From Bacteriovorax sp. MedPE-SWde (GTDB lineage Bacteria; Bdellovibrionota; Bacteriovoracia; Bacteriovoracales; Bacteriovoracaceae): a DNA stretch of 64,000 bases. Shown here piece by piece: positions 9,213 through 27,635 of this stretch. The notes below the pieces were generated by a model. That model ran no database searches, was not told the DNA's origin, and saw only the letters and a list, made by a program, of their open reading frames with translations. Made by a program: the position numbers and the translations under genes. The stretch is taken from NCBI GenBank assembly GCA_001874305.1, contig MPCU01000005.1, positions 248,001 through 312,000 of the forward strand, read 5' to 3'. Numbering within the stretch: the stretch's first letter is position 1; every line of letters starts with the position of its first letter.

Positions 9213-9914
9213 ATGAACTTAAACCAAAACTCAAATCGTAAAAAACAAATGCCTATTTTTGATGTGGAAGACTTTGAAATAGAAGATATCCCTTTTAGGC
9301 CACTTACTGATGGCCTAGGTTTTAACGATCAATATAGTGATTTTAAGAAACCTAAGACTACGATGAAGTCTAAAAGAGTCCAGGAAAAAGTATACGAACA
9401 AATGAGTAATGTTGAAGTTAAGAAAGATGTTCCAATGGAGCTTGAAGCTTTCTATAATGCTCCAAAGCACCGTTCACCACAAGTTAATAAAGAACTTGAT
9501 TTAAAAGTAAGAGTCGAAAGAAGTGCTCCCTTATTAAATAGATTCCTTGGTTGGTTCATTGATACTGCACTTTGTTTAAGTGTTTTCTCAATTATCACTG
9601 GAATGATGTATATCTCTACTTCAATGAGTCTAAAAGATTTTAACTCACTCATAATGACAGATTATAATTTCGTGTTTCCATTTATATTATTAGTTCTTGT
9701 ATATAATATTTATGGCATATCAATGGGCTTTCAACAGACGATTGGTCAAAAGCTTTTTAAAGTTAAAAATAACTTTGATCATGTTAAAACTGAGGCTGCT
9801 TCATTTCTTATAAAGAGATCATATTTTGAATTATTTTCTATATGTACTTTAGGTATACCTTACTTATTAAATTACGATTATAAAGTTCTTGGAAATAAGG
9901 TAGTTAAGTCATAA
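9213..9914 (+). CDS. RDD family membrane protein
   Basis: 233 residues. The first 100 are charged and probably cytoplasmic. A typical RDD domain follows: the Arg/Asp motif NRFLGWFID (residues 109-117) opens membrane helix 1 (about 111-135), helix 2 is at about 152-170, then GFQQTIGQKLFKVK and a further hydrophobic region near 205-222. RDD proteins are of mixed or unknown function, some with transport or envelope roles. Its stop shares one base with the start of the next gene (TAATG). Confidence 0.85.
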   Translation: MNLNQNSNRKKQMPIFDVEDFEIEDIPFRPLTDGLGFNDQYSDFKKPKTTMKSKRVQEKVYEQMSNVEVKKDVPMELEAFYNAPKHRSPQVNKELDLKVRVERSAPLLNRFLGWFIDTALCLSVFSIITGMMYISTSMSLKDFNSLIMTDYNFVFPFILLVLVYNIYGISMGFQQTIGQKLFKVKNNFDHVKTEAASFLIKRSYFELFSICTLGIPYLLNYDYKVLGNKVVKS

Positions 9915-10360
9915 TGAGCCTCAACGAAATATTAGAAAATAGAGAAGGTAAAACAATTGTATTCACAAATGGGTGCTTTGATATCCTTCATAAAGGCCAT
10001 ATAAGTTACTTAAACGATGCTAAAGACCAGGGTGACATACTAATTGTAGGTGTAAACTCAGACTCAAGCGTAAAAAGACTTAAGGGTGAGGATAGGCCAG
10101 TTAATAAGGAACTTGATCGCCAGTTCATGCTTGAAAACCTTAAGGCGGTAGATGCCGTTGCGATCTTTGAAGAAGATACTCCTTATAATTTAATCAATTC
10201 GATTCAGCCTGATATTCTTGTAAAAGGCGGGGATTGGAAGGTTGAAGATATTGTTGGCCACGATATTGTTACGGCTAAAGGTGGGATCGTAAAAAGTCTT
10301 CGTTTTGAAAATGGTTATTCGACTACGGACTTAATAAATAAAGTTCAAGGCCGCTCTTAA
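9914..10360 (+). CDS. rfaE2: RfaE2/HldE C-terminal type nucleotidyltransferase
   Basis: Stand-alone cytidylyltransferase-fold domain of 148 residues. The HxGH nucleotide motif is present in NGCFDILHKGH, with GVNSDSSVKRLKG and DILVKGGDW as in the adenylyltransferase half of HldE that makes ADP-heptose precursors of lipopolysaccharide. Only the transferase domain is here; no kinase half lies nearby. Glycerol-3-phosphate cytidylyltransferases share the fold, so the substrate is inferred from the closest motif pattern. Translation is coupled to the RDD gene. Confidence 0.85.
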   Translation: MSLNEILENREGKTIVFTNGCFDILHKGHISYLNDAKDQGDILIVGVNSDSSVKRLKGEDRPVNKELDRQFMLENLKAVDAVAIFEEDTPYNLINSIQPDILVKGGDWKVEDIVGHDIVTAKGGIVKSLRFENGYSTTDLINKVQGRS

Positions 10361-10617: not shown

Positions 10618-11451
10618 ATGGGTATGAGAATTAACACAAACGTAACATCATTAGCAGCACAAAGAAGTTTAGGTGGAGTAAAGAGAGCACAAAACTCTTC
10701 TATGCAAAAACTATCTTCTGGTAGCAGAATTAATAAAGCAGGAGACGATGCAGCAGGACTAGCGATTAGTGAAAAACTAAAAGCTGGAATTAGAGGGACT
10801 CAACAGGCGACAAGAAACGCAGGTGATGGGATCTCAATGGTACAAACAGCAGAAGGTGGTTTAAACGAGGTATCTAATATTCTTGTAAGACTAAGAGAGC
10901 TATCTGTACAAGCAGCATCTGATACAGTTGGTGATCAGGAAAGAAAGTTTACTGATCTAGAGTTTCAATCTTTAGTAAATGAAGTTGATAGAATTGCAGA
11001 ATCAACTAAGTTTAACGGAAAGAATCTTCTAAACGGTGAAGGAGATCAAATGGATTTCCAAATCGGTATCAACAATACTGAAGGACTTGATAGAATAGCT
11101 TTCAATCCTTCTGATACGAGTGCAAAGATAGGTGATATCGGAATTGAAGGTCTTGCAGTATCCTCGAAAGGTGATGCTCAGGGTAACTTAGAAGTTCTTG
11201 ATGAAGCAATCTCTTCTATCTCTGGAAACAGAGCAAACTTAGGGGCATTGCAGAACAGACTTCAATCGACAATTTCTAACCTAGAAGTATCGACTGAAAA
11301 CTTGAGTGAAGCGAATTCAAGAATTAGAGATACTGACATTGCATCTGAATCAGCTGAATTAGCGAGAACTAATATTCTTTCTAACTCTGCAACAGCAGTA
11401 CTTGCTCAGGCTAACCAGTCTAACCAAGGTGCGCTAAGATTAGTTGGTTAA
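10618..11451 (+). CDS. fliC: Flagellin 1
   Basis: Structural subunit of the flagellar filament, secreted by the flagellar type III system. N-terminal D0/D1 begins MGMRINTNVTSLAAQ and includes LSSGSRINKAGDDAAGLAISEKL; C-terminal D1/D0 ends with AQANQSNQGALRLVG. At 277 residues it lacks D2/D3 domains, as usual in short flagellins. ATG at 10618 has GAGGAG 6 bases upstream; the second in-frame ATG at 10624 is less well placed. It has its own terminator and is followed by a second flagellin gene. The central Ser/Thr-rich stretch could carry glycans, in line with the nearby glycosyltransferase-type genes. Confidence 0.97.
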   Translation: MGMRINTNVTSLAAQRSLGGVKRAQNSSMQKLSSGSRINKAGDDAAGLAISEKLKAGIRGTQQATRNAGDGISMVQTAEGGLNEVSNILVRLRELSVQAASDTVGDQERKFTDLEFQSLVNEVDRIAESTKFNGKNLLNGEGDQMDFQIGINNTEGLDRIAFNPSDTSAKIGDIGIEGLAVSSKGDAQGNLEVLDEAISSISGNRANLGALQNRLQSTISNLEVSTENLSEANSRIRDTDIASESAELARTNILSNSATAVLAQANQSNQGALRLVG

Positions 11452-11758: not shown

Positions 11759-12589
11759 ATGGGCTTACGAATTTCAACTAACGTTGCATCACAAACAGTA
11801 CAAAAGAACCTAAGACAAGTAACAGCAGGTGGGAAAGATTCACTAGAGAAACTATCTAGTGGTAAGAGGATCACAAAGGCCTCTGACGATGCTGCCGGTC
11901 TAGCAATTGCTAAGAACCTAGAAGCGTCGACAAAAGGATTAAGAGCAGCAACTAGAAACGCAAATGATGGTATCTCATTAGTACAAACGGCTGAAGGGGG
12001 TCTAAATGAGACGTCTAACATCCTTACAAGACTAAGAGAGCTAACAGTTCAAGCAGCATCAGATACAATTGGTGACTCAGAAAGAGGATTCTTGGACAAA
12101 GAATATCAACAGTTAACAACAGAAGTAGATAGAATCGCACAATCAACTTCATTTAACGGATCAAATCTTTTAAATGGTGAAGGTGACGAGAAAGACATAC
12201 AAGTTGGAGCAACTGATGGAGAGCAAAATAGAATTACATTCGATGGCTCTCAGACAGACGCAACAGCAGACTCTATTGGAATAGGTGGAACAGGAGTATC
12301 TTCTAAAGATGATGCGCTAAGTTCAATGGCCGAAATCGATAGTGCAATTGAAAATGTATCAGGACAACGTGCCGACCTCGGTTCAATCCAGTCAAGACTA
12401 CAATCGACTGTATCGAACTTAGAGATTCAAACACTAAATCAGGATGCAGCAAGATCAATGATTGAAGATGTAGACGTAGCACAAGAGTCTGCGAAAATGG
12501 CTTCAAACAATGTTATCAAGCAAGCGGGTATTGCAACATTAGCACAAGCTAACAGCATACCAAATGCAGCAATGAGACTAGTAGGATAA
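11759..12589 (+). CDS. Flagellin 2
   Basis: Second flagellin, 276 residues, clearly a paralogue of the first with the same D0/D1-only architecture: MGLRISTNVASQ at the N-terminus, LSSGKRITKASDDAAGLAIAKNL, and a C-terminus ending NSIPNAAMRLVG. The RBS AAGGAG is 6 bases before ATG. Codons and composition match its neighbour, so this is a local duplication that has diverged, allowing a filament of mixed subunits. It is followed by two terminator-like hairpins. Confidence 0.97.
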   Translation: MGLRISTNVASQTVQKNLRQVTAGGKDSLEKLSSGKRITKASDDAAGLAIAKNLEASTKGLRAATRNANDGISLVQTAEGGLNETSNILTRLRELTVQAASDTIGDSERGFLDKEYQQLTTEVDRIAQSTSFNGSNLLNGEGDEKDIQVGATDGEQNRITFDGSQTDATADSIGIGGTGVSSKDDALSSMAEIDSAIENVSGQRADLGSIQSRLQSTVSNLEIQTLNQDAARSMIEDVDVAQESAKMASNNVIKQAGIATLAQANSIPNAAMRLVG

Positions 12590-12751: not shown

Positions 12752-13441
12752 ATGTTAAAGCAAAAAAAAGATGAGACTAGAGAATTTGAAACTTTGATAC
12801 TAGAAGCTGTAAAGGCTGAATCAAGTGCATTTATCTGGGACATTTGCGGAGACGAAGTTATAAGAGTTCCTGTTGAATTAAAAAACTTTAATAGCTATAA
12901 GAAAAAGATTAATTTTACTCTAGATCATAGAGCAAAGTACTACCTGAAGGATCTTATTAAAGGTCCAGGACTGTTAAAGTTCTACATTCCTAATCAACAA
13001 CTTCTCTTCGTTTCAAAAATAGATCTCTATAGAGGAACACAGTTAGAAGTTTGTTATCCTGATATGTTTAAAAAGCATGATCGTAGAAGAGATGACAGGG
13101 TTGAACCTCTAATTCCAGTATTTTTTAAAAGCGATGGATTAAAGAAAGAATGTTATGACCTTAGTCATGGCGGCTTTTCATTCGTTATGAACAATATGGA
13201 ATATAGAAAAGTTAAGTACAAAATTGATAAAGAACTAGAATGCCAAATTGAATTTCCATTCAAGAAAGTAAAAGTCGCAGTAAAGGTAGTTAATGTTGCA
13301 AACATTAAGCTATTCCAACTAGATAGATTCCCTTATGGTGCTAAGAGAGTTTCATTTCAGATAATAGAAGGTGACTTCTTTAAAGAATCTGTAACGAAAT
13401 TAGCTAAAGGAATGAAAAAACTTCTTATCGATCTTCTCTAG
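12752..13441 (+). CDS. PilZ domain protein
   Basis: 229 residues. The C-terminal part (about residues 105-225) is a PilZ cyclic-di-GMP receptor domain: the RxxxR arm is in RRRDDRVEP (about 110-118) and the second motif is DLSHGGFSF. The N-terminal 100 residues look like a YcgR-type beta-rich accessory domain. Standing behind two flagellin genes, it is a plausible cyclic-di-GMP brake or effector of motility; that role is inferred from position. RBS AAAGGA is 8 bases before the ATG. Confidence 0.85.
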   Translation: MLKQKKDETREFETLILEAVKAESSAFIWDICGDEVIRVPVELKNFNSYKKKINFTLDHRAKYYLKDLIKGPGLLKFYIPNQQLLFVSKIDLYRGTQLEVCYPDMFKKHDRRRDDRVEPLIPVFFKSDGLKKECYDLSHGGFSFVMNNMEYRKVKYKIDKELECQIEFPFKKVKVAVKVVNVANIKLFQLDRFPYGAKRVSFQIIEGDFFKESVTKLAKGMKKLLIDLL

Positions 13442-15789: not shown

Positions 15790-16685
15790 TATCTTCTACC
15801 GTGTCTAAATTTATCTTTTAGTGTTTTGAAGTATAGCCTTTCTTTATTATTAACTAATGAAACATGTTTGCGGGAAGGTTTAGATATTCTTATCTTCTGA
15901 TTTTTCATTACTGTAATGGCCTCTTGACCATCTAGAGTAAGAAAAATTTCATCTTCACCTTTTGGTATTTTAATATAAATTGATTCTGTATCAGGAAGTA
16001 CTAGTGGCCTATGTGTTAGGGCATGTGGACAAATTGGGTTTAATATTATTCCCTTTACACCTGGATGAACGATTGGACCGCCGGCCGCTAAGGAATAAGC
16101 TGTTGAGCCTATTGGACTAGAGACAATAAGTCCGTCCCCTGCAAGGTTATAAATATTTTCTAGTTCAGTATCAAGTGAGATACTAAACATTCTTGAAATT
16201 CCACTCTTTGAGATAACTGCATCATTAACAAAATAACCAGATCTAACAACCTTGTCTTGTTGAAGTATCTCTGCTTTATAAAGTGGAACATTATGAGTCT
16301 CAAAATTACCTTTTAAGACTTGAGCAAGGTCGTCGTGAAATTCATGTTTAGAAAACTCTGTAATAAATCCAAGATTCCCCATGTTAATTCCAAAAATTGG
16401 AGGGGAGTTCTTTTTAGAAGTTCTAGCAACACCAATAAGTGTTCCATCGCCACCTAATGTAACGAGTAGCTGACAAAGAGAATGCATTTCATTCTTTGTG
16501 ACCAGATTAAACTTTATTTTAGTTGTTTGATAAATTTCGTGAAGTCTCTGTGTCTCATCTACAGCAAAAAAGATTTCAATTTTCCTTCTTCTTAACCATT
16601 CTGTTAAGTTAGGAAGAATTGTCATGAAATCATGTATCGCCTTTGGCTTTAATATGATTCCAACGTTTTTAATCTGTTCTGACAT
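15789..16685 (-). CDS. nadK: NAD kinase
   Basis: Phosphorylates NAD to NADP. The GGDGTLIGVAR motif and the downstream NMGNLGFITEF are diagnostic, as are SSPIGSTAYSLAAGGPIVHP and the late LTLDGQ. Length 298. I use ATG at 16685 because AGAGG is 5 bases upstream; a GTG two codons earlier is possible. It overlaps the upstream response regulator gene by 17 bases, so NADP supply sits in the same transcript as a two-component pair. Confidence 0.95.
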   Translation of the reverse strand: MSEQIKNVGIILKPKAIHDFMTILPNLTEWLRRRKIEIFFAVDETQRLHEIYQTTKIKFNLVTKNEMHSLCQLLVTLGGDGTLIGVARTSKKNSPPIFGINMGNLGFITEFSKHEFHDDLAQVLKGNFETHNVPLYKAEILQQDKVVRSGYFVNDAVISKSGISRMFSISLDTELENIYNLAGDGLIVSSPIGSTAYSLAAGGPIVHPGVKGIILNPICPHALTHRPLVLPDTESIYIKIPKGEDEIFLTLDGQEAITVMKNQKIRISKPSRKHVSLVNNKERLYFKTLKDKFRHGRR

Positions 16686-17046
16686 GAGCACCTCTTATGA
16701 TTTCTTCAATAAATACTTTTACATCTGCAAAAGGCTTACTGTAAATACTGCAACCATACAATTTCGCCTTTTCAAGTATTTGCGGTGAACTATAAGCAGT
16801 TATAATGATAAATTTTGTAGATATCTCTTCATTACTTAATACTTTTTTAGACTCTTCGATAATATCGAAGCCAGTTATGTCTTGAAGCATCAAGTCACAA
16901 ATAATTATGTCATATGAGTTATTTAGTATATGTTTTATCGCAGCAGTACCATTATTTGTTGCTTCAACTGTTGCACCCTTTTTCTCAAGGAGTAACTTTA
17001 AAGTTCTTTGAATAAGTGGTTCGTCTTCAATTAATAAAATATTCAT
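16669..17046 (-). CDS. Single-domain response regulator (CheY-like)
   Basis: 125 residues, a receiver domain with no output domain. Acidic pocket ED at residues 7-8, phospho-acceptor Asp51 in IIICDLML, Thr83 in IITAYS and Lys104 in YSKPF. It is 3 bases downstream of the histidine kinase gene and is its likely partner. Without an output domain it must signal through protein-protein contact, for example to the flagellar switch or another kinase. Confidence 0.93.
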   Translation of the reverse strand: MNILLIEDEPLIQRTLKLLLEKKGATVEATNNGTAAIKHILNNSYDIIICDLMLQDITGFDIIEESKKVLSNEEISTKFIIITAYSSPQILEKAKLYGCSIYSKPFADVKVFIEEIIRGAHVRTD

Positions 17047-17049
17047 TCA

Positions 17050-18654
17050 TTATCCATTTCGCATAGGGATCTCTATAACGAAACAAGCACCATCTTGGTA
17101 TTCTCTATTAAGTTGAAGTGACCCATTAATTTTAGAAGCTAGACTCTTGCAAATAGATAGACCTAAGCCTGTACCAGTACTTTTAGTGGTATAAAATGCA
17201 TCAAATATTTGTTCTGCTTGGTTATTTTTTATCCCTGGACCATTATCTGTAATAGTGATTTTGATATGATCTTCAACTAACTTCACCGCTATATTAATAC
17301 TTTTGTTATCTTGATCTATTGTTTTTAGTGCTTGAGAACTATTAATAACGAGATTGAATATGATCTGGCTCAAATAGGTTGGGTTAGTGTGAATTGTTAA
17401 GTTACTTGAATCGTTGCAGTAAGTAACATTCTGTTTGTAATGCTTTGATTCAGACTTTGTTAAAGTTAGAGTTTCTTTAATTAGGGTTTGTATATTTATA
17501 TCTTGAAGTAAGTTTCTATCCCCATATAATCCTGAGAAGTTTTCAATTATACTTTGGCATCTTTCAGAGCTCTTTCCGATCTCTTCAATAGTGTCATTTA
17601 TAATTATATCTTTTTGATGATCGTCACTCAGAAGTAAATTAGTTGAGATATTAATACCGAACAATGGATTACTTAATTCATGCCTAAGAGTATTTAATAA
17701 TTCTCCCATGAGAATCAATCTTTCATGGTGGTAATATTCAGGATCACTTTGATGTTCTTCTAGAGCATCATATTCAATATTGATGTCTTTAAATTTTTTA
17801 CTTATAACTTTAGATGTACGCTTGTGTGAGCTACTTATACTTAAGTCTGCTAAAGTAACTTTTATATAGAAGGGAAAGCTGTATATTAGCTCTCTAAATT
17901 GCTGGTGCTTTTTCTTATGGTGGAACTTATTAACAAGATTAAGAATATTATGTGTCGAAATAGTTAAAAAGTTTTGAAAATATTCTTTCTCTTCATCTGA
18001 AGGACTAAAGAAATCTTCTCTTGATAAAATAAAAATAACTGAATTGTTATCGAAATTAAATTCCTTGGCGAGGAATGAACCAACTATTTTAATATCATCG
18101 GAAAGGATATCTGATTGATCGAACAGTTTGTTCTTACTCTTTTTTATTTTTGTATAAATATTATTAAAACTAGAAACTGTTGTATTCTGAGTTTCTTGAT
18201 AACTATCTCGAGATTTAATTAGTGAGGTTGCGGTAGACTTACCTCTTTCATGAATAAATATTTGTCCACTAGTGTAGTTTTTGAACATTGGCACAGTGCT
18301 AAACTTCATAAGAAATTCAGAGAGGTCAGAGCACCTTTTAAAAAGCTTTTTTTCAGAAGATATGAAATCATCTGTTAAGTTCTCAAGAGTTCTTTTATCT
18401 ATGGCCTTAAATGAAGAACAAAGTAATTTTACACCAAGATCATTTGAAGGAAACTTCGTTAAGGTAGAGGTTCTTAAATCATTAAGAATTAAGAAGTCAT
18501 CTTTGAATGTAATTATTAAATCTGCGAGTGATTTTTTAGTGTGGGAAATAGAAAGGCCGGCGAGTAATGCGCCGGCCTTTTTATCGCAATATATATTTAA
18601 ACTATTTAATCTATTTTGCTCTCTAGCATGAGAGGAATTGCTTTGATTTTCCAC
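17050..18654 (-). CDS. Sensor histidine kinase (start uncertain)
   Basis: Cytoplasmic histidine kinase with no membrane helix. His325 lies in the H-box NTLRHELSNPL; the ATPase domain has DNGPGIKN and TGLGLSICKSL. Residues about 115-250 may be a degenerate GAF-like sensor domain. The start is unsettled: the GTG at 18654 lacks a Shine-Dalgarno and lies 49 bases inside the upstream gene, and a terminator-like hairpin falls over codons 25-35. No ATG, GTG or TTG occurs in frame after the hairpin until the ATG at about residue 116, yet residues 40-115 look like real protein. It pairs with the downstream response regulator. Confidence 0.85.
   Translation of the reverse strand: MENQSNSSHAREQNRLNSLNIYCDKKAGALLAGLSISHTKKSLADLIITFKDDFLILNDLRTSTLTKFPSNDLGVKLLCSSFKAIDKRTLENLTDDFISSEKKLFKRCSDLSEFLMKFSTVPMFKNYTSGQIFIHERGKSTATSLIKSRDSYQETQNTTVSSFNNIYTKIKKSKNKLFDQSDILSDDIKIVGSFLAKEFNFDNNSVIFILSREDFFSPSDEEKEYFQNFLTISTHNILNLVNKFHHKKKHQQFRELIYSFPFYIKVTLADLSISSSHKRTSKVISKKFKDINIEYDALEEHQSDPEYYHHERLILMGELLNTLRHELSNPLFGINISTNLLLSDDHQKDIIINDTIEEIGKSSERCQSIIENFSGLYGDRNLLQDINIQTLIKETLTLTKSESKHYKQNVTYCNDSSNLTIHTNPTYLSQIIFNLVINSSQALKTIDQDNKSINIAVKLVEDHIKITITDNGPGIKNNQAEQIFDAFYTTKSTGTGLGLSICKSLASKINGSLQLNREYQDGACFVIEIPMRNG
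18552..18585 (-). terminator. Terminator-like hairpin inside the 5' part of the kinase ORF
   Basis: Perfect 11-bp stem AAAGGCCGGCG / CGCCGGCCTTT (18552-18562 and 18570-18580) with a 7-base loop. On the minus strand it is followed by TTTCTATTT, and on the plus strand by a T-run as well, so it could stop transcription from either side. It begins 26 bases downstream of the stop of the 206-residue gene, exactly where that operon should end. Confidence 0.75.
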
Positions 18655-19226
18655 TGTGCTAGATTATCGGCTAGTTCGTACTCTAGCAAGTCTGAAAGCA
18701 TGATGATGTCATTTTTCTCTTTAGCTGGGATCAATGCCTTAAGGATTGAAAGTAAGTGAATTTCAAGGTTACGAATAGTGTCATTACTCTTAAAGAAATC
18801 AGGGTTATATGTCTTTACAGTTCTATGAACTTTAGAGATTAACTGGATGAATAAATCAACCAGATCAATTAGTTCAGAGAAGTGTGTATTGGCCATATCA
18901 ACGTCATTTTCACTGTAGTAGCCCACAACTTCAGTTATCTTCGCAGCAATTGTATCAATATACCCATTACTATCTGTAAGTGCTTCAAATGCAATCTCGT
19001 AATTGTTCTTAATTTCAATAAGAGGACTACCTAAATTATCAATATCTTCATCGACTAGCTCACCTAGACTTTCAAGGTTAAACTTCTCTTTACCAATTGT
19101 TATAGCTGTAACTACTTCATTAGGCTGAGTACCCTCTGATTCAATTAGCTCAATAGCTTGACCTAGAGTTAAAGATTCATTTTGGTTAAGGTCTAAAGTT
19201 TCTCTGTTAATGTTTACAGTTATCAT
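18606..19226 (-). CDS. Unknown protein, 206 aa, in flagellin modification cluster
   Basis: No family recognised. Residues 1-75 start MITVNINRETLDLNQ and have the strand-helix-strand pattern of a small beta-grasp-like domain; residues 80-206 are predicted mostly helical. No signal peptide or membrane helix. AAGGA is 6 bases before ATG, and the ATG overlaps the stop of the upstream glycosyltransferase-type gene (ATGA), so the products are made together. It is the last gene before the terminator-like hairpin. A role as adaptor for the glycosyltransferases or flagellin is inference from position only. Confidence 0.75.
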   Translation of the reverse strand: MITVNINRETLDLNQNESLTLGQAIELIESEGTQPNEVVTAITIGKEKFNLESLGELVDEDIDNLGSPLIEIKNNYEIAFEALTDSNGYIDTIAAKITEVVGYYSENDVDMANTHFSELIDLVDLFIQLISKVHRTVKTYNPDFFKSNDTIRNLEIHLLSILKALIPAKEKNDIIMLSDLLEYELADNLAQWKIKAIPLMLESKID

Positions 19227-20920
19227 ATATTTGTCCTTACTGATTTTGTGTTGGCCTCTTTTGAAGAAGTCACCACACCTAATGAGTTCATAAAATCATA
19301 TAAAATACTCGAGACAGTCGAGATTTCTTGATACACGTAGAATGCCGACTCTGTTAATTTAACTATATTGTCTCCGTGAAGGTTAGACTTCGCGACTTTT
19401 GCAAAGTCTACTGCAGGCCCTAGTAGTCCATCTGCTTGTGCAAGAACGTCTAGAAGTCTGTCAATTTCGTCTATCTTCGTTGAATGCTCTTTAATTAAAG
19501 TTAAATTTGGCGAATTATTTGAAATTTCTTCTAATATATAACGCGTATATTTTTTACCAAATTCAGAAAGCTCATATAGAGTTTCAATTGATTTAACAGA
19601 GGCCTTTAATAAAGCAGTTGTTTCGCGATTAAATTTTGGAGTATCTAAATTAAGATCTAATTCACTAAAGTTATATGACCAGATGATTTGATAAAAGTCC
19701 TTAAAGATACTCTTTGCTGACTTTTCATCATCAATAACATTTGAAAATGTTAACTGACCTACTTTATTAACTGTCGTTTTATCAATATTAATAGAATTTA
19801 AGTGAAAAGCACTTATATCCTTTTTCAATATTTCTTTGCTAATAGTATTTGAGCCTAGAAGTTGCGTCGCCATGTTTATAACTGCCTGATATGAAATATC
19901 AGCGTGGCATTGATAAAAATCACACTTTGTATCAGGAAAGCATGGAAAGCATTTCGTCTTTGGGCTTAATACATAGTTATTTAAAGCATAGGGAGCCGTT
20001 TCCTGAGGTCTAACCGTCCCTAAAGAAATCGTGAGACTTTTCACATTTTTAAAACTTAATAAATGAGAAACCATTGAATCATGACCAATAAAAAGAAAAC
20101 TTTCATCAACTTTTTGATAGAGGTCGGATATTGGTAAACCAAGCATTGGGTGAATTTTGTTTTTAAAGTTTTCTAGAATAGGATTGTTGATAATCTTATT
20201 ATAACTCTCTTCATCTTGTCGGCTACCAGCGATATGGATATTCAGATCTTTATTATCTTTAAGCAGCTTAAAGATAACTTCTGTCCATTTACTTTCTTGC
20301 CACATCTTTTTACCTTGTGACGCAAAAGGATGGAGAAGAATATTGTTTTTGTTCTTCTTAGAATACTCTTCCGTTGAAAGGTGAGTGCTTTTCTTATTAA
20401 CACCAACAATATTGCTAAATAAATCAACAAGGTTAAAAGGGTTTAAGTCTCCTCTCATTACAGTAGAGAATAGATACTGAGACCACTTATCTTGGATAAC
20501 CTTGTTATGTCCTTGAGAGTAATAAGGCCCTAGCTTGTGTTCACTCTTAATTAAAGAGTGTAAATATGTTGATGTTTTAGAAAATGATAAATTGATACTT
20601 GCAGAAATTGGGTGTGCATTTATCTTTTCAACTTGAGCTAAAATATTTTTAACTGAACCTTTAACACCGTCAGTAAGATTGATTGTAGATTTGAAATCAA
20701 GTTCAATCACTTTATCGAAAGTTTGATCAACTATAAATCTTATGGGTTCTACAAATTGCTTTCTAGCAACTAGTAATGTCTCAAATTCAGGATGATTAAT
20801 TTTAAGAAGTCTTGCAGCATGACAAGTTTGTAGGATATCCCCAATTCTTGTTATTTGAATAATTGCCACTGTCTTTTTTGCAATCTCTGGTGGGTTCGAC
20901 TCTAGTTTTATAGCTGTCAT
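19223..20920 (-). CDS. GT9-type (heptosyltransferase-like) glycosyltransferase with extra C-terminal domain
   Basis: 565 residues. The N-terminal 350 or so follow the ADP-heptose:LPS heptosyltransferase (GT9, GT-B fold) pattern: QITRIGDILQT near the N-terminus, LLHPFASQ at the interdomain position and IGHDSMVSHLLS in the nucleotide-sugar half, followed by a four-Cys stretch typical of some GT9 proteins. The remaining 200 residues are mostly helical and match nothing I know. Its ATG directly abuts the stop of the 48-residue gene, and its RBS (GAGGAGG) is inside that gene. Placement behind fliD-fliS suggests flagellin rather than LPS as acceptor. Confidence 0.82.
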   Translation of the reverse strand: MTAIKLESNPPEIAKKTVAIIQITRIGDILQTCHAARLLKINHPEFETLLVARKQFVEPIRFIVDQTFDKVIELDFKSTINLTDGVKGSVKNILAQVEKINAHPISASINLSFSKTSTYLHSLIKSEHKLGPYYSQGHNKVIQDKWSQYLFSTVMRGDLNPFNLVDLFSNIVGVNKKSTHLSTEEYSKKNKNNILLHPFASQGKKMWQESKWTEVIFKLLKDNKDLNIHIAGSRQDEESYNKIINNPILENFKNKIHPMLGLPISDLYQKVDESFLFIGHDSMVSHLLSFKNVKSLTISLGTVRPQETAPYALNNYVLSPKTKCFPCFPDTKCDFYQCHADISYQAVINMATQLLGSNTISKEILKKDISAFHLNSINIDKTTVNKVGQLTFSNVIDDEKSAKSIFKDFYQIIWSYNFSELDLNLDTPKFNRETTALLKASVKSIETLYELSEFGKKYTRYILEEISNNSPNLTLIKEHSTKIDEIDRLLDVLAQADGLLGPAVDFAKVAKSNLHGDNIVKLTESAFYVYQEISTVSSILYDFMNSLGVVTSSKEANTKSVRTNI

Positions 20921-21067
20921 CTAACCCTCCTCTTCTAAGATAGAACTCATTAAAAGTAGAGCAAAGTCTTCTTCTGTTAATAGTCCCTTCTCATTTAGAC
21001 TTTTTTGAACTGTATTTAAGTCCTTTAAAAGGTCATTCTTAAAAGCTTCTGTATTATCTGAGTTCAT
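20921..21067 (-). CDS. Small protein, 48 aa, between the two GT9-type genes
   Basis: ATG at 21067 with GAGGG 9 bases upstream, TAG at 20921. The product is acidic and helical (begins MNSDNTEAFKND, ends SSILEEEG). It overlaps the 3' end of the preceding gene by 14 bases and its stop is immediately followed by the ATG of the next gene, leaving no gap. The tight fit at both ends and the internal Shine-Dalgarno for the next gene support real translation. Function unknown; it may be a small partner of the flanking enzymes. Confidence 0.68.
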   Translation of the reverse strand: MNSDNTEAFKNDLLKDLNTVQKSLNEKGLLTEEDFALLLMSSILEEEG

Positions 21068-22739
21068 TTGAAACTTCCCTCGAGCTATTTGCTCGCAGTT
21101 GTTCTTTAGTACTTCTAATCTTGTCTTGAGTAATTTTGATTATATCAACCTGATGTTGAATATCAGATTTAACTTCATATAGTAAGCTTTCAACTTCTCT
21201 CGAAGATGCCATGAAGTCTGAAGTATCAAGTGCTTCAAGACGTGCACGGAATCTTATCAGAGGGATCTTCATAAATTGTGATTCAGAATCACAGAAACTA
21301 CAAAGTTCTGTTAAGTTAGCTACAAAAGTTTTTGTTTTATTTATATTTCCATCTAGTTGTAGAAGAGATCTTAAAGTTGCGAGAAGGTTCTTTGATATGT
21401 CTGTCACATCTTCTTTACATGCTTCGAGCCAAGTCTTAGCATAGTTATGATCTAAACTAACCATGTCATCATATAGGTCTGTATCATCCTGACCTATTAA
21501 CTTCTTCATAATAAGTAATCGAGAAGACAGTCTTTCTATTTCGGCATTAACATCAAAGTCACCGGCCAAGTATAAGTACTTAGTTCCTAGGGCATCTTTC
21601 TTTGGTCTATAAACTGTTATATTGTCTTGAAAACTGTGTGTAGATATGTCTTCTTGAAACATTAAATAACTTGCTAATGCAATTAGATCATTAGCTCTAA
21701 TTAGAATGTTTTGATTTTGTAGTTCTAGAGAGTTTTCTACTTCTGATTTTGAAAAAGATCTTTTATTAACTAGTGGAGTTATTACGACACTATTTGGATT
21801 AACTGTACCTTGTTTGAATAATGGACTTTCGCCTAATGAGTATTCAATTGTTGGAATATCAGATAAGTCTGCAAGGTGTTTAATTGATGTGTCTGGCGTA
21901 ATAAGTAGGTCTAAGTTTAATAAGACTGAATTCATTGCAAGAAAATCTGATTCAATTGAAACTAGTGAGTTATTAAATTCAGAATTTACTAAGCTTGCTA
22001 ATCTTCGCTCTTCATTAGTTGGAGCAACAAGTAGTACAGGAAAGAAATTTGGATGCATATAGAGTTCATCTATAAGCTTAATTAATTCTTCGTGTACTAA
22101 CATTTTGTTAGGAGATGATGCTGTTAGCTGTACTCCGATAATTTTAATATCTTTATCTGTTGATTCAATATTTCTAATTTCTTCAAAGTTCTTGTGAGCA
22201 GAAAGGTTATATTCTTCTTTGGTCTTTAAAGCATAATTACTAGCATTATTCTCTAGGGATAACATGTTGTGATATGTGTCTACAAAGTTAACTGGTGAGT
22301 AATTAATTTCAGTTAAAACATCATTAAAAAGAATACTCCATTCATTACTAAACTCTATATCACAAGTGTCGTTAAATCTTATCCCAACATGCTTAGTTGA
22401 AGTTGGCTTAAGAAGAGACGTAATATGAGTAGATACTCTATCATTAGAATAATTTACAACAGAGTCCCAGCTTCTTTGTACAACTGGAGCAAGATCTTTT
22501 TGAAATTGTTCTAAGGCGAAACCATCAGAGAATATTCTATTTTTCTTATATGTAAGAACTTTCTTTCTATCAATCGTATGGATTCGACTTACTCCGTGAA
22601 GTACTTCAGCGGCTTTTTTAAACTCTTCTAGAACGAGTAGGGTAACATTTGTATCTTGCGCCATAAGACTTCTTACAAGATGCCCCATTGCAAAAATATC
22701 ACCATTTCTTTTTAAATTTATTATTAATACTTCTTTCAT
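21054..22739 (-). CDS. Second GT9-like glycosyltransferase with extra C-terminal domain
   Basis: 561 residues, organised like the other large protein of this locus. The N-terminal half has heptosyltransferase-like features: IINLKRNGDIFAMGHL at the start, QLTASSPNK mid-way and TPDTSIKHLADL in the nucleotide-binding half. The C-terminal 180 residues are helical. Motifs are more degenerate than in the downstream paralogue, so catalytic competence is unsure. It begins one base after the stop of the Maf-like gene, within one operon. Confidence 0.75.
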   Translation of the reverse strand: MKEVLIINLKRNGDIFAMGHLVRSLMAQDTNVTLLVLEEFKKAAEVLHGVSRIHTIDRKKVLTYKKNRIFSDGFALEQFQKDLAPVVQRSWDSVVNYSNDRVSTHITSLLKPTSTKHVGIRFNDTCDIEFSNEWSILFNDVLTEINYSPVNFVDTYHNMLSLENNASNYALKTKEEYNLSAHKNFEEIRNIESTDKDIKIIGVQLTASSPNKMLVHEELIKLIDELYMHPNFFPVLLVAPTNEERRLASLVNSEFNNSLVSIESDFLAMNSVLLNLDLLITPDTSIKHLADLSDIPTIEYSLGESPLFKQGTVNPNSVVITPLVNKRSFSKSEVENSLELQNQNILIRANDLIALASYLMFQEDISTHSFQDNITVYRPKKDALGTKYLYLAGDFDVNAEIERLSSRLLIMKKLIGQDDTDLYDDMVSLDHNYAKTWLEACKEDVTDISKNLLATLRSLLQLDGNINKTKTFVANLTELCSFCDSESQFMKIPLIRFRARLEALDTSDFMASSREVESLLYEVKSDIQHQVDIIKITQDKIRSTKEQLRANSSREVSNELR

Positions 22740-22740
22740 T

Positions 22741-23448
22741 CTAGAAGTCTCCGTTACTTAAGTGTGTAAACGCTAAGAGCATATGATCTAATTTATTGTT
22801 GAATGATTCTTTAGCTAAAACATTATTATGAATAAAGTCATCTAGGTTAGCCGATTCATTGTCTGAATATAGATATGACTTTAACTCTCTATTACTTACA
22901 AATTTGGTAATTGAAGATAGCTCTTTATTAGCAGTAAATTCCAAGAATGATTTGAAGTAAGCTTGATAGAGTCCGAAAGATGCTGGATGACTAACAACAG
23001 CAGGTTTTTCTATTAGGAACTTAACAAGATTAATTTCGCTATAAATTGCTTGTAAATTTTCACCAGAATAAACTTCAATATTTTTATTTGGAAAGAGATG
23101 GTTTGAAACACAGTCTCTATATACTTGTTCATTCGGTTCAATGACAACGACCTTATAATCATTTCCATGATAAGATTCTAATTTTCTGCATATTTCATAC
23201 ACATGGTAAGCAAAACCTAATCCTAAAACTAATACAGTGTTCTTTGATTGAAGAACGCTGTCATGTTTAGAAACGATCGCCTGTGCTTCTTTAGCAGGGT
23301 TATACATTGAATGAAGATGTACATCATTAACAACTGGTACTTTTAAGTTGTTCTTCGATGTCTTAACTTCATACGAGTTAACATTGATACTCTTCATATG
23401 AAGAGCTTTTTCATTTTCATTAATTACTGAACTATTGAGTGTACGCAT
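22741..23448 (-). CDS. Truncated Maf-like (motility accessory factor) protein
   Basis: 235 residues. Central motif VLVLGLGFAYHVYEI followed by VVVIEPNEQVYRDCV resembles the N-terminal Rossmann-type region of Maf/DUF115 flagellin nonulosonic-acid transferases, which are usually 600 residues or more. The catalytic middle of Maf is absent and there is no sign of a broken frame downstream, so this looks like a genuinely short form. A plain SAM-methyltransferase-like fold is an alternative. RBS AAGGATGAGG precedes ATG; a 120-base gap separates it from the FliT-like gene. Confidence 0.7.
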   Translation of the reverse strand: MRTLNSSVINENEKALHMKSINVNSYEVKTSKNNLKVPVVNDVHLHSMYNPAKEAQAIVSKHDSVLQSKNTVLVLGLGFAYHVYEICRKLESYHGNDYKVVVIEPNEQVYRDCVSNHLFPNKNIEVYSGENLQAIYSEINLVKFLIEKPAVVSHPASFGLYQAYFKSFLEFTANKELSSITKFVSNRELKSYLYSDNESANLDDFIHNNVLAKESFNNKLDHMLLAFTHLSNGDF

Positions 23449-23487
23449 ATTTCCTCATCCTTAAGGTCTTTATGTGTAATAAAAGGC

Positions 23488-23513
23488 GGGAACCACTTCC
23501 TTGATTCCCTTTT
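23488..23513 (-). terminator. Weak hairpin between the FliT-like and Maf-like genes
   Basis: GGGAACCA / TGATTCCC (23488-23495 and 23502-23509) pair over 8 positions with one G-T wobble and a 6-base loop. On the minus strand it is followed by GCCTTTTATT, a weak terminator; on the plus strand by TTTT. It may separate or attenuate transcription between fliD-fliS-fliT and the modification genes. Confidence 0.4.
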
Positions 23514-23569
23514 GACAATATATCTTACCTTATAATCTGCTGTTCGTGCAATGAAGAATTTTTATGGAG

Positions 23570-23971
23570 TTACTTTTTTACAGAAGAAAGGTTGTAACCT
23601 TTAACTGATTGACGATTTTTAAATACTGAAGCGATTTCTTGAGTAGTTTGGTCTTTTTGATCAGAGAGGGCTTCTAGCACTTCTGTATCTAGGTTATCAT
23701 TGTGTAGTACAATTTGATTAACCTCTTGAGACCATGTTTTTAGAATTTCTATTTCAGCTCTAGTTACATCACCAGCTTTTAAATTTGTTACATCTTCTTC
23801 AATACCTGATTGAAAAGTTTTAATAATACTTATTAACCTTTCTCTATTGTCAGTTATTTGTTCAATAAGATCTATCCTACCATTTTTAGCTGCGGCCAAT
23901 AAACCGTTACTAGCGTCTGTCAGACCACCAAGCAGATCCATATGCTGCATAATTCTTTCAAAGATATTCAT
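23570..23971 (-). CDS. FliT/FlgN-like flagellar chaperone candidate
   Basis: 133 residues, all helical, acidic, no signal peptide. Position directly after fliD and fliS is that of fliT, the chaperone for the filament cap, and the size fits FliT or FlgN-type helical-bundle chaperones, but sequence identity is not recognisable by eye. I prefer ATG at 23971 (GGAG 6 bases upstream) over ATG at 23983, which overlaps the fliS stop but has no ribosome site. Confidence 0.65.
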   Translation of the reverse strand: MNIFERIMQHMDLLGGLTDASNGLLAAAKNGRIDLIEQITDNRERLISIIKTFQSGIEEDVTNLKAGDVTRAEIEILKTWSQEVNQIVLHNDNLDTEVLEALSDQKDQTTQEIASVFKNRQSVKGYNLSSVKK

Positions 23972-23982
23972 ATTTTTCTCCA

Positions 23983-24372
23983 TTATTTAGCCATTTCTTG
24001 TCTTTTTAATGTTTTGATAGCTTCTTGCCATCCATCATAAAGAGTAGTTAATACATTTAAACATCCATCAAGTGGTTCTTTGTCCATTTTGATATTAGCC
24101 TGTGTACTAGAAAATAAAATAAAGTCGTAAAGTGATGAAAGCTCTTTGGCCACATCTCCACCTACTTCAAAATCTAAACTACTGTTGAGCTCAATTACAA
24201 TGTCTTGTAATTTTCCGATGTATTCACCTTTTTGAGCAATCTCTTTTGCTTCAATTGCACCGATAGCTTTTTTGCAGTTTTTAATTGCTGCTTGATAGAG
24301 CATTAATAAAATTTGCTCTTTACTAGCGGTATTCACTGAAGTTTTTTTGTAAGCTCCAAGACCGTAACTCAT
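23983..24372 (-). CDS. fliS: Flagellin export chaperone FliS
   Basis: Cytoplasmic chaperone that binds the C-terminus of flagellin and keeps it unpolymerised until export. 129 residues, the usual size, starting MSYGLGAYKKTSVNTASKEQILLMLY with the conserved Y-x-A...S-x-E-Q/L-LLMLY pattern (residues 8-26), and containing DFILFSSTQAN and LYDGWQEA near the end. It lies 13 bases after fliD, the standard pairing. Confidence 0.94.
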   Translation of the reverse strand: MSYGLGAYKKTSVNTASKEQILLMLYQAAIKNCKKAIGAIEAKEIAQKGEYIGKLQDIVIELNSSLDFEVGGDVAKELSSLYDFILFSSTQANIKMDKEPLDGCLNVLTTLYDGWQEAIKTLKRQEMAK

Positions 24373-24385
24373 TACTTCCTCCTAA

Positions 24386-25774
24386 TTAACCCAGCTGTGC
24401 GACCTGAGGGGCGGCTCCGCCCATACTCTGGATCCCAGCACCTTGGGCCTTAATTCTTGATATTGTTCCTTCTAATCGTGCAAATTTATTTTTTAAATTC
24501 TTTTCTTTTTGCTCCAGCATGCTTTCTCTTTGCTTTATTCTTCTATCTACTGCAGCAATGTTATTTTCTAAACTTCTTTTTCTTGATGCTAATAAACCAT
24601 CTGGAAACCTGAGTGTTTGTCCTATAACTTTATTCATATTGTCGATGAATCCATCACTTTTAGTTCCATCTTTCTTGAAAGTTCCAGTAAGAATTTCGGC
24701 GATATTTTGATAGTCTTTTTTAAGTTCACTTCCAAATTTTTCTTGATCAAACTTAAGATTACCTTCTCTTGTGAAGCTAAGTCCTACGTCACCAATTCTA
24801 AAGTTACCTTTCTTTGTTTCAATATTTTTGAATATTGCACTTCTTAAACGTCCTTCAAGGGACTGAAGCATAATATCCCCACCAAGAGTTCTTGATGTAT
24901 CTGATTTTTCATCTAGTGTATTTTGATCTTTAATGAAGGCAAAAACAGCATTGATCTGATCAACGATTCCATTAACTTTTTCTCCAACGGCCATAGTATC
25001 TTCAGCTACGTTGAGAGCAAATTCTTCACCTGGCTTAGCTTTTTTCAAGTCAATTGTTAGACCTGGAATAAGATCACTAGTTTTATTTTCACCAAGTTCA
25101 ATTTCAAATCCATCAAGAGCAACAACAGCATCTTGAGCTTCTCTTTCAAACTCTAGGTAAAGATCATCTTCACCATCTACAAAGTAAAAATATGGAAATT
25201 CAGCCTTGTTAACATCACCAGTTTCTTTAAGACTTAGAATTAGTCTCCATGGTGTATCTGATGCTGAACCATCATTGATAACACTTGCTCTTAGACCGCT
25301 ATCTGAGTCTTTATTAATTAATTTGGCGATACTCTTAAGACTTGAGTTTTCCGAATCAACGTATATTTCTTTGCTATCACCATTTGGAAGTGTGTATTGA
25401 ATAAATCCAACACCAACGTAACTGTCGTCAGCATCTTCAAAGCCACTACTCATGGCCGAAGATTTCTGAGCAAGTTGTTTAACTTCCATTTGGTAGCTGG
25501 CAGGTTCTGCAATATTCTTATCTGCAGTTACACCAATAATTTTTTCATCAGTATCAATTGATAATTCTCGAAGGGAACGGGCACTACCGTTTTTTAGAAT
25601 TGAGCCTTTGAGTCCTTCCACTAATTGAATAAGTTCGCCAACAAGACCTTTCTTGTCCTCAATCTTACTCTTACGTTTCTCCATATTCGTAATTGGAATT
25701 CTTTCAGCTTTCATGATCTGCTGAACGATATCCTTTGGGAGACCCGTGTTAATGGAACCAAATGCTAAACCCAA
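24386..25774 (-). CDS. fliD: Flagellar filament cap protein FliD
   Basis: Caps the growing filament and folds exported flagellin. N-terminal region GLPKDIVQQIMKAERIPI matches the FliD_N motif, with a beta-rich middle and a C-terminal coiled coil (about residues 400-455, RRIKQRESMLEQKEKNL). The start is a TTG at 25774: a perfect AGGAGG lies 5 bases upstream and the product then begins with LGLAFGSINTGLP; an in-frame start 48 bases earlier would carry that ribosome site inside the gene. 462 residues, typical. Confidence 0.95.
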   Translation of the reverse strand: MGLAFGSINTGLPKDIVQQIMKAERIPITNMEKRKSKIEDKKGLVGELIQLVEGLKGSILKNGSARSLRELSIDTDEKIIGVTADKNIAEPASYQMEVKQLAQKSSAMSSGFEDADDSYVGVGFIQYTLPNGDSKEIYVDSENSSLKSIAKLINKDSDSGLRASVINDGSASDTPWRLILSLKETGDVNKAEFPYFYFVDGEDDLYLEFEREAQDAVVALDGFEIELGENKTSDLIPGLTIDLKKAKPGEEFALNVAEDTMAVGEKVNGIVDQINAVFAFIKDQNTLDEKSDTSRTLGGDIMLQSLEGRLRSAIFKNIETKKGNFRIGDVGLSFTREGNLKFDQEKFGSELKKDYQNIAEILTGTFKKDGTKSDGFIDNMNKVIGQTLRFPDGLLASRKRSLENNIAAVDRRIKQRESMLEQKEKNLKNKFARLEGTISRIKAQGAGIQSMGGAAPQVAQLG

Positions 25775-25882
25775 CGTTTCCTCCTGAAACTTCTTAGCGC
25801 GCATCCTGCACACCAAGGGCATTCTCTGTTAGATTAGCATACTGAGTAGAATATTCAATGTAGTGCGTAAAATGGGTAGTTT

Positions 25883-26135: not shown

Positions 26136-27635
26136 GTGAAAACTTTAGAAAATAAGTCAGGTATTATATATCAAAAGTCGAAATTCTTTTTAATTCGGTC
26201 ACTTACGTACTTTGCATTCTTATTAATTCCTATTTGGATGCAGAAAACACTATTACTTTCAACTGGTGCACAGATGATTGTAATGGTTCTTTATTGTATG
26301 TTCATAATGAGCCAGTGGTTTCTCCTAGGTAAGGAGATCGATTATAGATTGAAAATTTACTTCAGGGTTAACTCATCAATAGATCGGGTTGTTTATCGTC
26401 TATTTATGGGAATGTTTTTTATGGCGATATACTTCAACGCCTTAAGCTTATTACCTGGTAAATGGGTTTATAATATATTTTGGGCCACTTGGGTAACTTT
26501 GGGCCTTTTCTATTCCTGGCCCACTCGTGGAAAAATCATACAAGAGTCGGTAACTACAAATTTCCACGAATACAAATATTTGGATAGATTTGAAAAAACA
26601 GTTCTCTTTCTAATAGTCGCGATGCTAGCGGTATCCATTCCAGAGTTACCGAGCCTTGATAGTTCAAGGGCCCTGAAGTTATTCTTCGATCCAAGTGAAA
26701 GAATATCTGGTGCTTTCTGGAACTTTTTGACCGTTAACTACTATCCTTTTAAGAAGTACCCTAAGTTACTTAAGTTAGCTTGGTGCGTACATTTTTATTT
26801 TTTAGTCGTATCTATGTATCTCATGAGTTTCTACGCAATTCTTAGATACTTTGTTTCGAGGAGACTGGCCGTACTTGGTGTATTCGCGCTGATTTCATCT
26901 TGGTCATTTTCTAAGATCATGGCCTTCAACTTTGGTAGTACTCTCTTAACTTCATATTCAATGCTATGGCTGTGGGCACTTCTGTGGTGTACAAAGAGTT
27001 CAACCTACAGGTCGGGGCTCTTTATGGGCCTAGTTGGAGCGTGGGGAGTCATGATTGATAAATCTAACTTTCTACTATTTGCAATACAAACACTTTCTAT
27101 TCACTATCTCTTCTTAAAGGATAAAACCTTTTGGTATAAGAGACAGTTCTTTAAGTATAATTTACTTGGGATTTTTCTAGGCATATTTGTATTTATCTTG
27201 AGTACGAGCACATTTGATTTTGGACTTAGTGATAATTTTTCATTGGTTTTTACAGATCTTTCAAGATTGATTGAGAGGAAGGCATTCTTCATAATCTCAA
27301 TTTTTGGACTTGGCGTCTTCTTATTGAAAATGTTTATGCCAAAGAAGAAGAACTTTGATTTGGTCGGTATACAGACAGAGAAGCTTAATCAGTTTGGATT
27401 CGCATTGGGAGTGTTATTTCTAGGTGGTCTTCTATTTAATACACGATACTTTAAAGACTTTACTTTGTTGTGGGTATTAGCTTTCTATAGTGTCCTACCA
27501 ATTGAGTTGGTCTTTCAGAAGATTAGGAGATTAAGATCGAGTAGGAATATGATTTATCTAATTTATATACTTATTTGTTTATTAGACTCTCACTTTGAGG
27601 GACGTGTAAAAATACTATTAAGACTCTTTAACTAA
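26136..27635 (+). CDS. Polytopic membrane protein, possibly GT-C-like
   Basis: 499 residues with roughly ten to twelve hydrophobic membrane segments from residue 17 to the end. Family not recognised. A luminal-type loop after the early helices (about residues 165-210, SIPELPSLDSS) and the alternating helix pattern recall GT-C-fold integral membrane glycosyltransferases, but no catalytic motif is clear. Start is GTG at 26136 with a poor ribosome site. It is divergent from the fliD cluster, so a link to glycosylation is only suggestive. Confidence 0.7.
   Translation: MKTLENKSGIIYQKSKFFLIRSLTYFAFLLIPIWMQKTLLLSTGAQMIVMVLYCMFIMSQWFLLGKEIDYRLKIYFRVNSSIDRVVYRLFMGMFFMAIYFNALSLLPGKWVYNIFWATWVTLGLFYSWPTRGKIIQESVTTNFHEYKYLDRFEKTVLFLIVAMLAVSIPELPSLDSSRALKLFFDPSERISGAFWNFLTVNYYPFKKYPKLLKLAWCVHFYFLVVSMYLMSFYAILRYFVSRRLAVLGVFALISSWSFSKIMAFNFGSTLLTSYSMLWLWALLWCTKSSTYRSGLFMGLVGAWGVMIDKSNFLLFAIQTLSIHYLFLKDKTFWYKRQFFKYNLLGIFLGIFVFILSTSTFDFGLSDNFSLVFTDLSRLIERKAFFIISIFGLGVFLLKMFMPKKKNFDLVGIQTEKLNQFGFALGVLFLGGLLFNTRYFKDFTLLWVLAFYSVLPIELVFQKIRRLRSSRNMIYLIYILICLLDSHFEGRVKILLRLFN

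Follow-up and report, generated by a model that had tools for sequence, protein, structure and literature searches.

A candidate flagellin glycosylation module with a free-standing Maf N-terminal domain and a pair of GT9 enzymes in Bdellovibrionota

In ordinary Maf flagellin glycosyltransferases, a single chain carries a Rossmann-like N-terminal domain, a catalytic domain resembling sialyltransferases, and a helical C-terminal domain that is reported to be FliS-like. We know of no clear function for the N-terminal domain and, to our knowledge, heptose is not a usual sugar on flagellin. The present analysis concerns a set of genes in a DNA stretch of 64,000 nucleotides (the window) from Bacteriovorax sp. 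MedPE-SWde (assembly GCA_001874305.1, contig MPCU01000005.1, positions 248,001–312,000), which belongs to a 3.76 Mb genome. The set encodes a Maf-related protein (MafS), two glycosyltransferases of family 9 (GT9), termed GTA and GTB, and two small proteins, and it lies behind the genes of the flagellar cap and the flagellin chaperone. With a probability of about 0.7, it is read as a complex that O-glycosylates flagellin in the cytoplasm of Bdellovibrionota and in which the GT9 pair takes the place of the catalytic domain of Maf.

Compared with the Maf family (MAF_flag10; structure 5mu5 from M. magneticum), the locus shares the Maf_flag10_N domain, the position beside flagellin, cap and chaperone genes, and the expected action on flagellin in the cytoplasm before export. 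It differs in that the N-terminal domain is a separate protein, that the catalytic domain is absent with a GT9 pair in its place, and that the genome has no NeuB. In a phylum sample of 291 genomes, canonical one-piece Mafs (about 610–710 residues) occur in a single family, f9, an example of which shows a clear PF01973 match; none was found in the genome of the window.

Heptosylation of protein by a GT9-like enzyme has been described for TibC (PMC4358343). TibC and AAH, of the BAHT group, are GT9-like enzymes that put heptose on protein, and a four-cysteine motif is found in one GT9 of each pair here. TibC has an N-terminal β-barrel and a β-hairpin thumb and acts on autotransporters. In GTB, the GT9 fold begins at about residue 15 with no domain before it, a helical bundle forms the C-terminal part, and the model matches WaaC and 3tov (Z 25–28) better than TibC (Z 17.6). 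The Caulobacter enzyme FlmG joins tetratricopeptide repeats (TPR) to a GT-B domain in a single chain, its sugar is pseudaminic acid, and it contains no Maf-related part (PMC7591256). Like FlmG, the module would combine GT-B catalysis on flagellin with recognition by a separate part. In other families, a TPR gene of its own, not fused to a GT-B domain, stands between fliT and mafS; the cassettes of the family of the window (f1) have no such gene. With WaaC and WaaF, the GT9 enzymes of lipopolysaccharide (LPS) synthesis, the module enzymes share the fold, the catalytic Asp and the Asp/His motif, but they differ by an extra C-terminal region, the flagellar linkage and clades of their own.

Proteins of the module

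The five genes form a tight run on the minus strand: mafS (22741–23448), the gene of GTA (21054–22739), that of a 48-residue protein (20921–21067), that of GTB (19223–20920) and that of ORF206 (18606–19226), with successive intergenic distances of +1, −14, 0 and −4 bases. These positions and the tight arrangement agree in full with a sequence-only reading of the window, which had proposed a flagellin glycosylation system made of a truncated Maf and two GT9-type enzymes with extra helical domains.

MafS (235 residues) does not itself reach the threshold of any Pfam family, and 17 of 30 orthologues match PF20157 (Maf_flag10_N), the best with an E-value of 1.1e-6. The AlphaFold2 model of MafS (predicted local distance difference test score, pLDDT, 89) shows a Rossmann-type fold, which agrees with the published description of the Maf N-terminal domain as a degenerate Rossmann fold (PMC11339370). 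Its top VIA-align match is the Maf structure 5mu5, over residues 33–227 only, which is the N-terminal domain (Z 10.3, root-mean-square deviation 4.0, 137 aligned residues); the second row has a Z of 9.5. Foldseek ranked methyltransferases and spermidine synthases first, with 5mu5 absent among the top rows, and a search of PDB sequences with the MafS profile gave no match. The catalytic MAF_flag10 domain (PF01973) is absent from MafS, GTA and GTB in Pfam scans that included their orthologues. Judged from family matches and the model, MafS is a free-standing Maf N-terminal domain devoid of a catalytic domain. The label "Maf-like" thus holds for this domain and no further, and the description as a truncated Maf enzyme is abandoned, MafS being a separate domain and not a shortened enzyme. 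Since MafS lacks a catalytic domain, this activity has to be supplied by the GT9 pair or by a protein encoded elsewhere.

A PF20157 match in a 548-residue frame of another genome (G059) was rejected as MafS, since the MafS of that genome is on another contig beside FliS. Elsewhere in the sample (L127, G033:C7, 9202–11462), a second MafS-GTA pair adjoins genes for a GspE/PilB-like ATPase, a PilC-like protein and several prepilin-like proteins, with no FliS gene in the part of the locus that was read. Possibly, MafS-GTA acts as a portable module that also serves exported subunits of other kinds, pilins for example.

Both GTA (561 residues) and GTB (565 residues) match the GT9 family PF01075 (26.2 and 41.3 bits, cut-off 22), as do many orthologues. 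The GTB model (pLDDT 90, predicted template modelling score 0.88) consists of a GT9 domain (residues 15–360 approximately) and a C-terminal helical bundle (402–546 approximately). Over the GT9 domain, VIA-align gave Z-scores of 27.6 with 3tov, 25.8 with WaaC bound to ADP-fluoroheptose (2h1h), 24.8 with WaaF and 17.6 with TibC. The residues aligning with the catalytic Asp, Lys and Asp/His of WaaC are Asp28, Lys205, Asp281 and His286 in GTB, kept in 61–63 of 65 orthologues. Their counterparts Asp14, Lys212, Asp283 and His288 are present in GTA of the window, and in 57, 52, 51 and 51 of 67 orthologues, respectively. By sequence and model, GTB is a GT9 with a GT-B fold and its catalytic residues kept; GTA is a GT9 by its Pfam match and catalytic residues. 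The GT9 domains of the two are homologous (hhalign E-value 9.8e-36), and the similarity of the C-terminal regions is weak. Of the extra helical domains proposed for both proteins, that of GTB is borne out by its model, and for GTA a helical C-terminal region is predicted by analogy. A protein search of the genome contigs with GTA alone returned no match.

Six GT9 matches are found in the genome. A maximum-likelihood tree was built from 61 GT9 domains. GTA of f1 clusters there with the GT9 that comes first in other families, and GTB of f1 with the one that comes second, each with a support of 100; both clades are separate from the three LPS-type GT9s of this genome that were included. From this phylogeny, GTA and GTB are two ancient paralogue lineages.

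GTB of the window contains a cysteine knuckle, C324-x2-C-x5-C-x4-C338. In f1, this motif is found in 64 of 65 GTB and in none of 67 GTA sequences (17/17 and 0/17 in a sampled set). Outside f1 the distribution is reversed, with the motif in the first GT9 (12/12 sampled) and not in the second (0/12). Every genome sampled therefore has one knuckle per GT9 pair, on GTB in f1 and on GTA elsewhere. This could mean that the enzymes work as a pair needing a single knuckle, as if sharing one metal site. The spacing differs from that of the iron finger of TibC (Cys 339, 342, 358 and 370; PMC4358343). A further GT9 of the genome (L239) has a similar motif, and the knuckle was therefore no longer taken to prove that GTB belongs to BAHT.

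ORF206 is a helical protein of 206 residues with the conserved motif DLLEYEL.DNL.QWK. As the sequence-only reading had it, neither ORF206 nor the 48-residue protein matches a known family; for ORF206, no Pfam family was found. A scan with an alignment of the closer subset, that of all members being too diverse, gave 54 loci in or consistent with Bacteriovoracales/Bdellovibrionota, the relatives being of Bacteriovoracaceae/Halobacteriovorax type. More distant forms occur in other families of the phylum. In relatives, 67 of 69 gaps between GTA and GTB contain an open reading frame similar to that of the 48-residue protein.

Linkage to the flagellin chaperone genes across the phylum

Upstream of mafS on the same strand are fliD, the filament cap gene (24386–25822; PF07195 6.8e-39, PF02465 2.5e-14), and fliS, the flagellin export chaperone gene (23983–24372; PF02561 2.9e-39), both above the Pfam cut-offs. 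They are followed by a gene for a FliT-like protein of 137 residues (23570–23983). Its PF05400 match (E-value 0.0043) is below the cut-off and weak by itself, and its position after FliS is conserved. The spacing between the fliT-like gene and mafS is 121 bases. Within this gap, a terminator-like hairpin of eight pairs is found on the minus strand (23488–23509); it is possibly an attenuator setting module expression.

In the following, f, g, G and L denote families, genera, genomes and loci. In most genera of f1 read, the order is FliD-FliS-FliT-MafS-GTA-(48 residues)-GTB-ORF206, followed by a histidine kinase, a receiver protein, NadK and RecN; the genes of flagellins and HldE2 lie at the other end of the locus, on the opposite strand. 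In f6, f11, f18, f21, f23, f26, f27 and f28, the order is FliD-FliS-FliT-TPR-MafS-GT9-GT9-ORF206-kinase-receiver with small variations (FliS is absent from the stretch read in f18 and f26). Other genes come next, including RsmD-like, CoaD-like and aminotransferase-like ones identified by eye. The FliD-FliS-FliT-(TPR)-MafS-GTA-GTB-ORF206 order thus recurs in at least eight families and dozens of species, in two chromosomal contexts. The presence of the same block in two downstream contexts suggests that the block itself is kept together, and its order in dozens of species indicates that the run is not due to chance.

The combination of these genes, which had not been recognised at first, is not peculiar to this genome. 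Dispersal of LPS-type genes away from flagellar genes in relatives had been named as evidence to the contrary; the opposite was found, as the set is locked to fliD-fliS-fliT.

MafS is present in 120 of the 291 genomes. FliS is found in 119 of these, the exception being a fragment at a contig start, and in 139 of the 171 genomes without MafS. Among pairs on the same contig, MafS and FliS are at most 3 kb apart in 66 of 68 cases. Of 85 loci with FliS and either the histidine kinase or NadK, 73 have MafS, two GT9s, ORF206 and the kinase, and most others miss one part. The four genomes read of genus g36 (L248, L253, L254 and L256) lack MafS, GTA, GTB and ORF206 altogether. Their loci retain FliT, the next gene (TPR-like), the kinase and the receiver around the missing block. 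No clear difference was seen between the D1 loops of flagellins from genomes with and without the module.

Proposed mechanism, sugar donor and rival explanations

Directly established are the domain identities, the GT9 fold, the catalytic residues, the gene order, the linkage to the flagellin chaperone and the absence of the block from one genus. It is inferred from these that the proteins form a complex and that flagellin is the acceptor (instead of the sheath or the LPS of the sheath), as are the identity of the sugar and the sequence in which transfer proceeds. MafS and the helical parts would dock onto flagellin in the cytoplasm, either ahead of its transfer to FliS or in the course of it. 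The first sugar would be attached to Ser or Thr of the D1 loop by one GT9, with the other either adding a second sugar or serving as an obligate partner. ORF206 would be a further subunit, and FliS would then take the modified flagellin for export. Maf glycosylates flagellin before the chaperone binds (PMC4065374), and the order proposed here follows that precedent. Flagellin glycosylation by a reduced Maf and two GT9s, as originally suggested, is the best-supported reading, with the acceptor and the ADP-heptose donor as its conjectural parts.

The probable acceptors are the flagellins FlaA (277 residues, 10618–11451) and FlaB (276 residues, 11759–12589), both on the plus strand and above the PF00669 cut-off. 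Upstream of them on the same strand is the gene of HldE2 (9914–10360; TIGR02199, 209 bits, cut-off 181.5), the only copy above the cut-off in the genome, which neighbours flagellins here and in many relatives. The genome also has gmhA, and an HldE1-like kinase gene identified by eye adjoins a GT9 gene (L243). Together, gmhA, the HldE1-like kinase and HldE2 beside the flagellins point to ADP-heptose. NeuB has no match in this genome, which argues against a nonulosonic acid donor; it was found, sometimes weakly, in 12 of 15 genomes tested. The case for heptose is weakened by the fact that HldE2 also serves LPS synthesis and that relatives often have NeuB. On balance, ADP-heptose is the most likely donor, with heptose put at about even odds.

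Several observations weigh against a flagellin-modifying complex. The link between MafS and Maf is a weak family match, with the window protein itself below threshold, and its fold resembles methyltransferases almost as well (Z 9.5 versus 10.3). Comparisons of the C-terminal regions of GTA, GTB and ORF206 with FliS and FliT by hhalign, and of the C-terminal regions with one-piece Mafs by hmmsearch, detected no sequence similarity; a FliS-like nature of these regions is unsupported by sequence. Roughly a fifth of GTA orthologues lack at least one catalytic residue, and GTA may be a scaffold in some species. MafS and GTA are missing from three f1 loci and one further genome (G058), which retain a single GTB-like gene along with ORF206. 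The co-occurrence of MafS and FliS has a Fisher p of 2e-7 in a test that ignores shared ancestry. Finally, the search for gmhA gave no match in three Bdellovibrio-like genomes, where the donor may differ.

The same data were weighed against other explanations. The GT9 pair might make a dedicated LPS core for the membrane that sheathes the flagellum, and the linkage to fliD-fliS would then reflect co-expression. GT9 enzymes normally make LPS core, in line with the NCBIfam heptosyltransferase models, and an LpxH-like gene is nearby. The flagella of Bdellovibrio and Bacteriovorax are sheathed, and the sheath LPS of B. bacteriovorus was reported to differ from that of the outer membrane (PMC7175336). 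This explanation is nonetheless unlikely. The Maf N-terminal domain belongs to enzymes that modify flagellin and is not known to act in LPS synthesis. In the tree, the pair branches away from three further GT9s of the genome, and in every family for which the stretch was read, the genes follow that of the flagellin chaperone.

Loss of catalytic residues from some GTA orthologues could instead suggest a non-catalytic, chaperone-like complex for flagellin assembly or quality control, with GT9 domains retained for binding only. The large helical region of GTB, the additional protein ORF206, and the kinase and receiver that follow the module would fit. The conservation of the catalytic residues in 61–63 of 65 GTB orthologues, and of the full set in most GTA, makes such a role quite improbable. 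Catalysis could also be provided from elsewhere, MafS forming a true split Maf with a stand-alone MptE/MAF_flag10-like protein of 201 residues (G000:C9, L134, 8786–9391) that exceeds the PF01973 cut-off. The donor would be CMP-Kdo or the like, and the GT9s would only extend the glycan. CbMaf can use Kdo (PMC11339370), but the gene on contig C9 is unlinked to flagellar genes and the genome has no NeuB, so that this arrangement is quite improbable as well.

The flagellin O-glycosylation complex is therefore preferred. A stronger version, in which the module is a new flagellin glycosylation architecture ancestral in Bdellovibrionota, with a freed Maf N-domain adaptor and an obligate GT9 pair that heptosylates flagellin, has in our view as much for it as against it. 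No description of such a system was found in the listed titles and abstracts of the open literature, subscription papers being outside this scope. If correct, predatory bacteria, including Bdellovibrio-like ones, would possess a flagellin modification system for which we found no earlier description, with heptose as the sugar class. It would be a further case of GT9 recruitment from LPS synthesis to protein modification. The roles of the Maf parts would be naturally separated, with the N-terminal domain as a protein of its own, open to deletion and assay, and g36 would offer a natural knockout for comparison. In B. bacteriovorus, Bd0604 and Bd0606 have been named as flagellins (PMC12546842), and the module is expected directly downstream of Bd0606 in strain HD100.

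Neighbouring genes

The minus-strand run extends beyond ORF206, where the sequence-only reading had ended it. The gene of the histidine kinase (17050–18654; PF02518 and PF00512) overlaps that of ORF206 and is followed by the gene of a stand-alone receiver domain protein (16669–17046; PF00072 7.5e-18), then by NadK and RecN, both named by eye. The kinase follows ORF206 across the phylum.

Seven Flagellin_N matches are distributed over several loci of the genome (contigs C11, C8 and C3). Divergent from fliD, a gene encodes an apparently hydrophobic protein of 499 residues (26136–27635) with no Pfam or NCBIfam match, the position of which is kept across the family. A gene for a PilZ-domain protein (12752–13441) adjoins the flagellin genes and is kept in many relatives.

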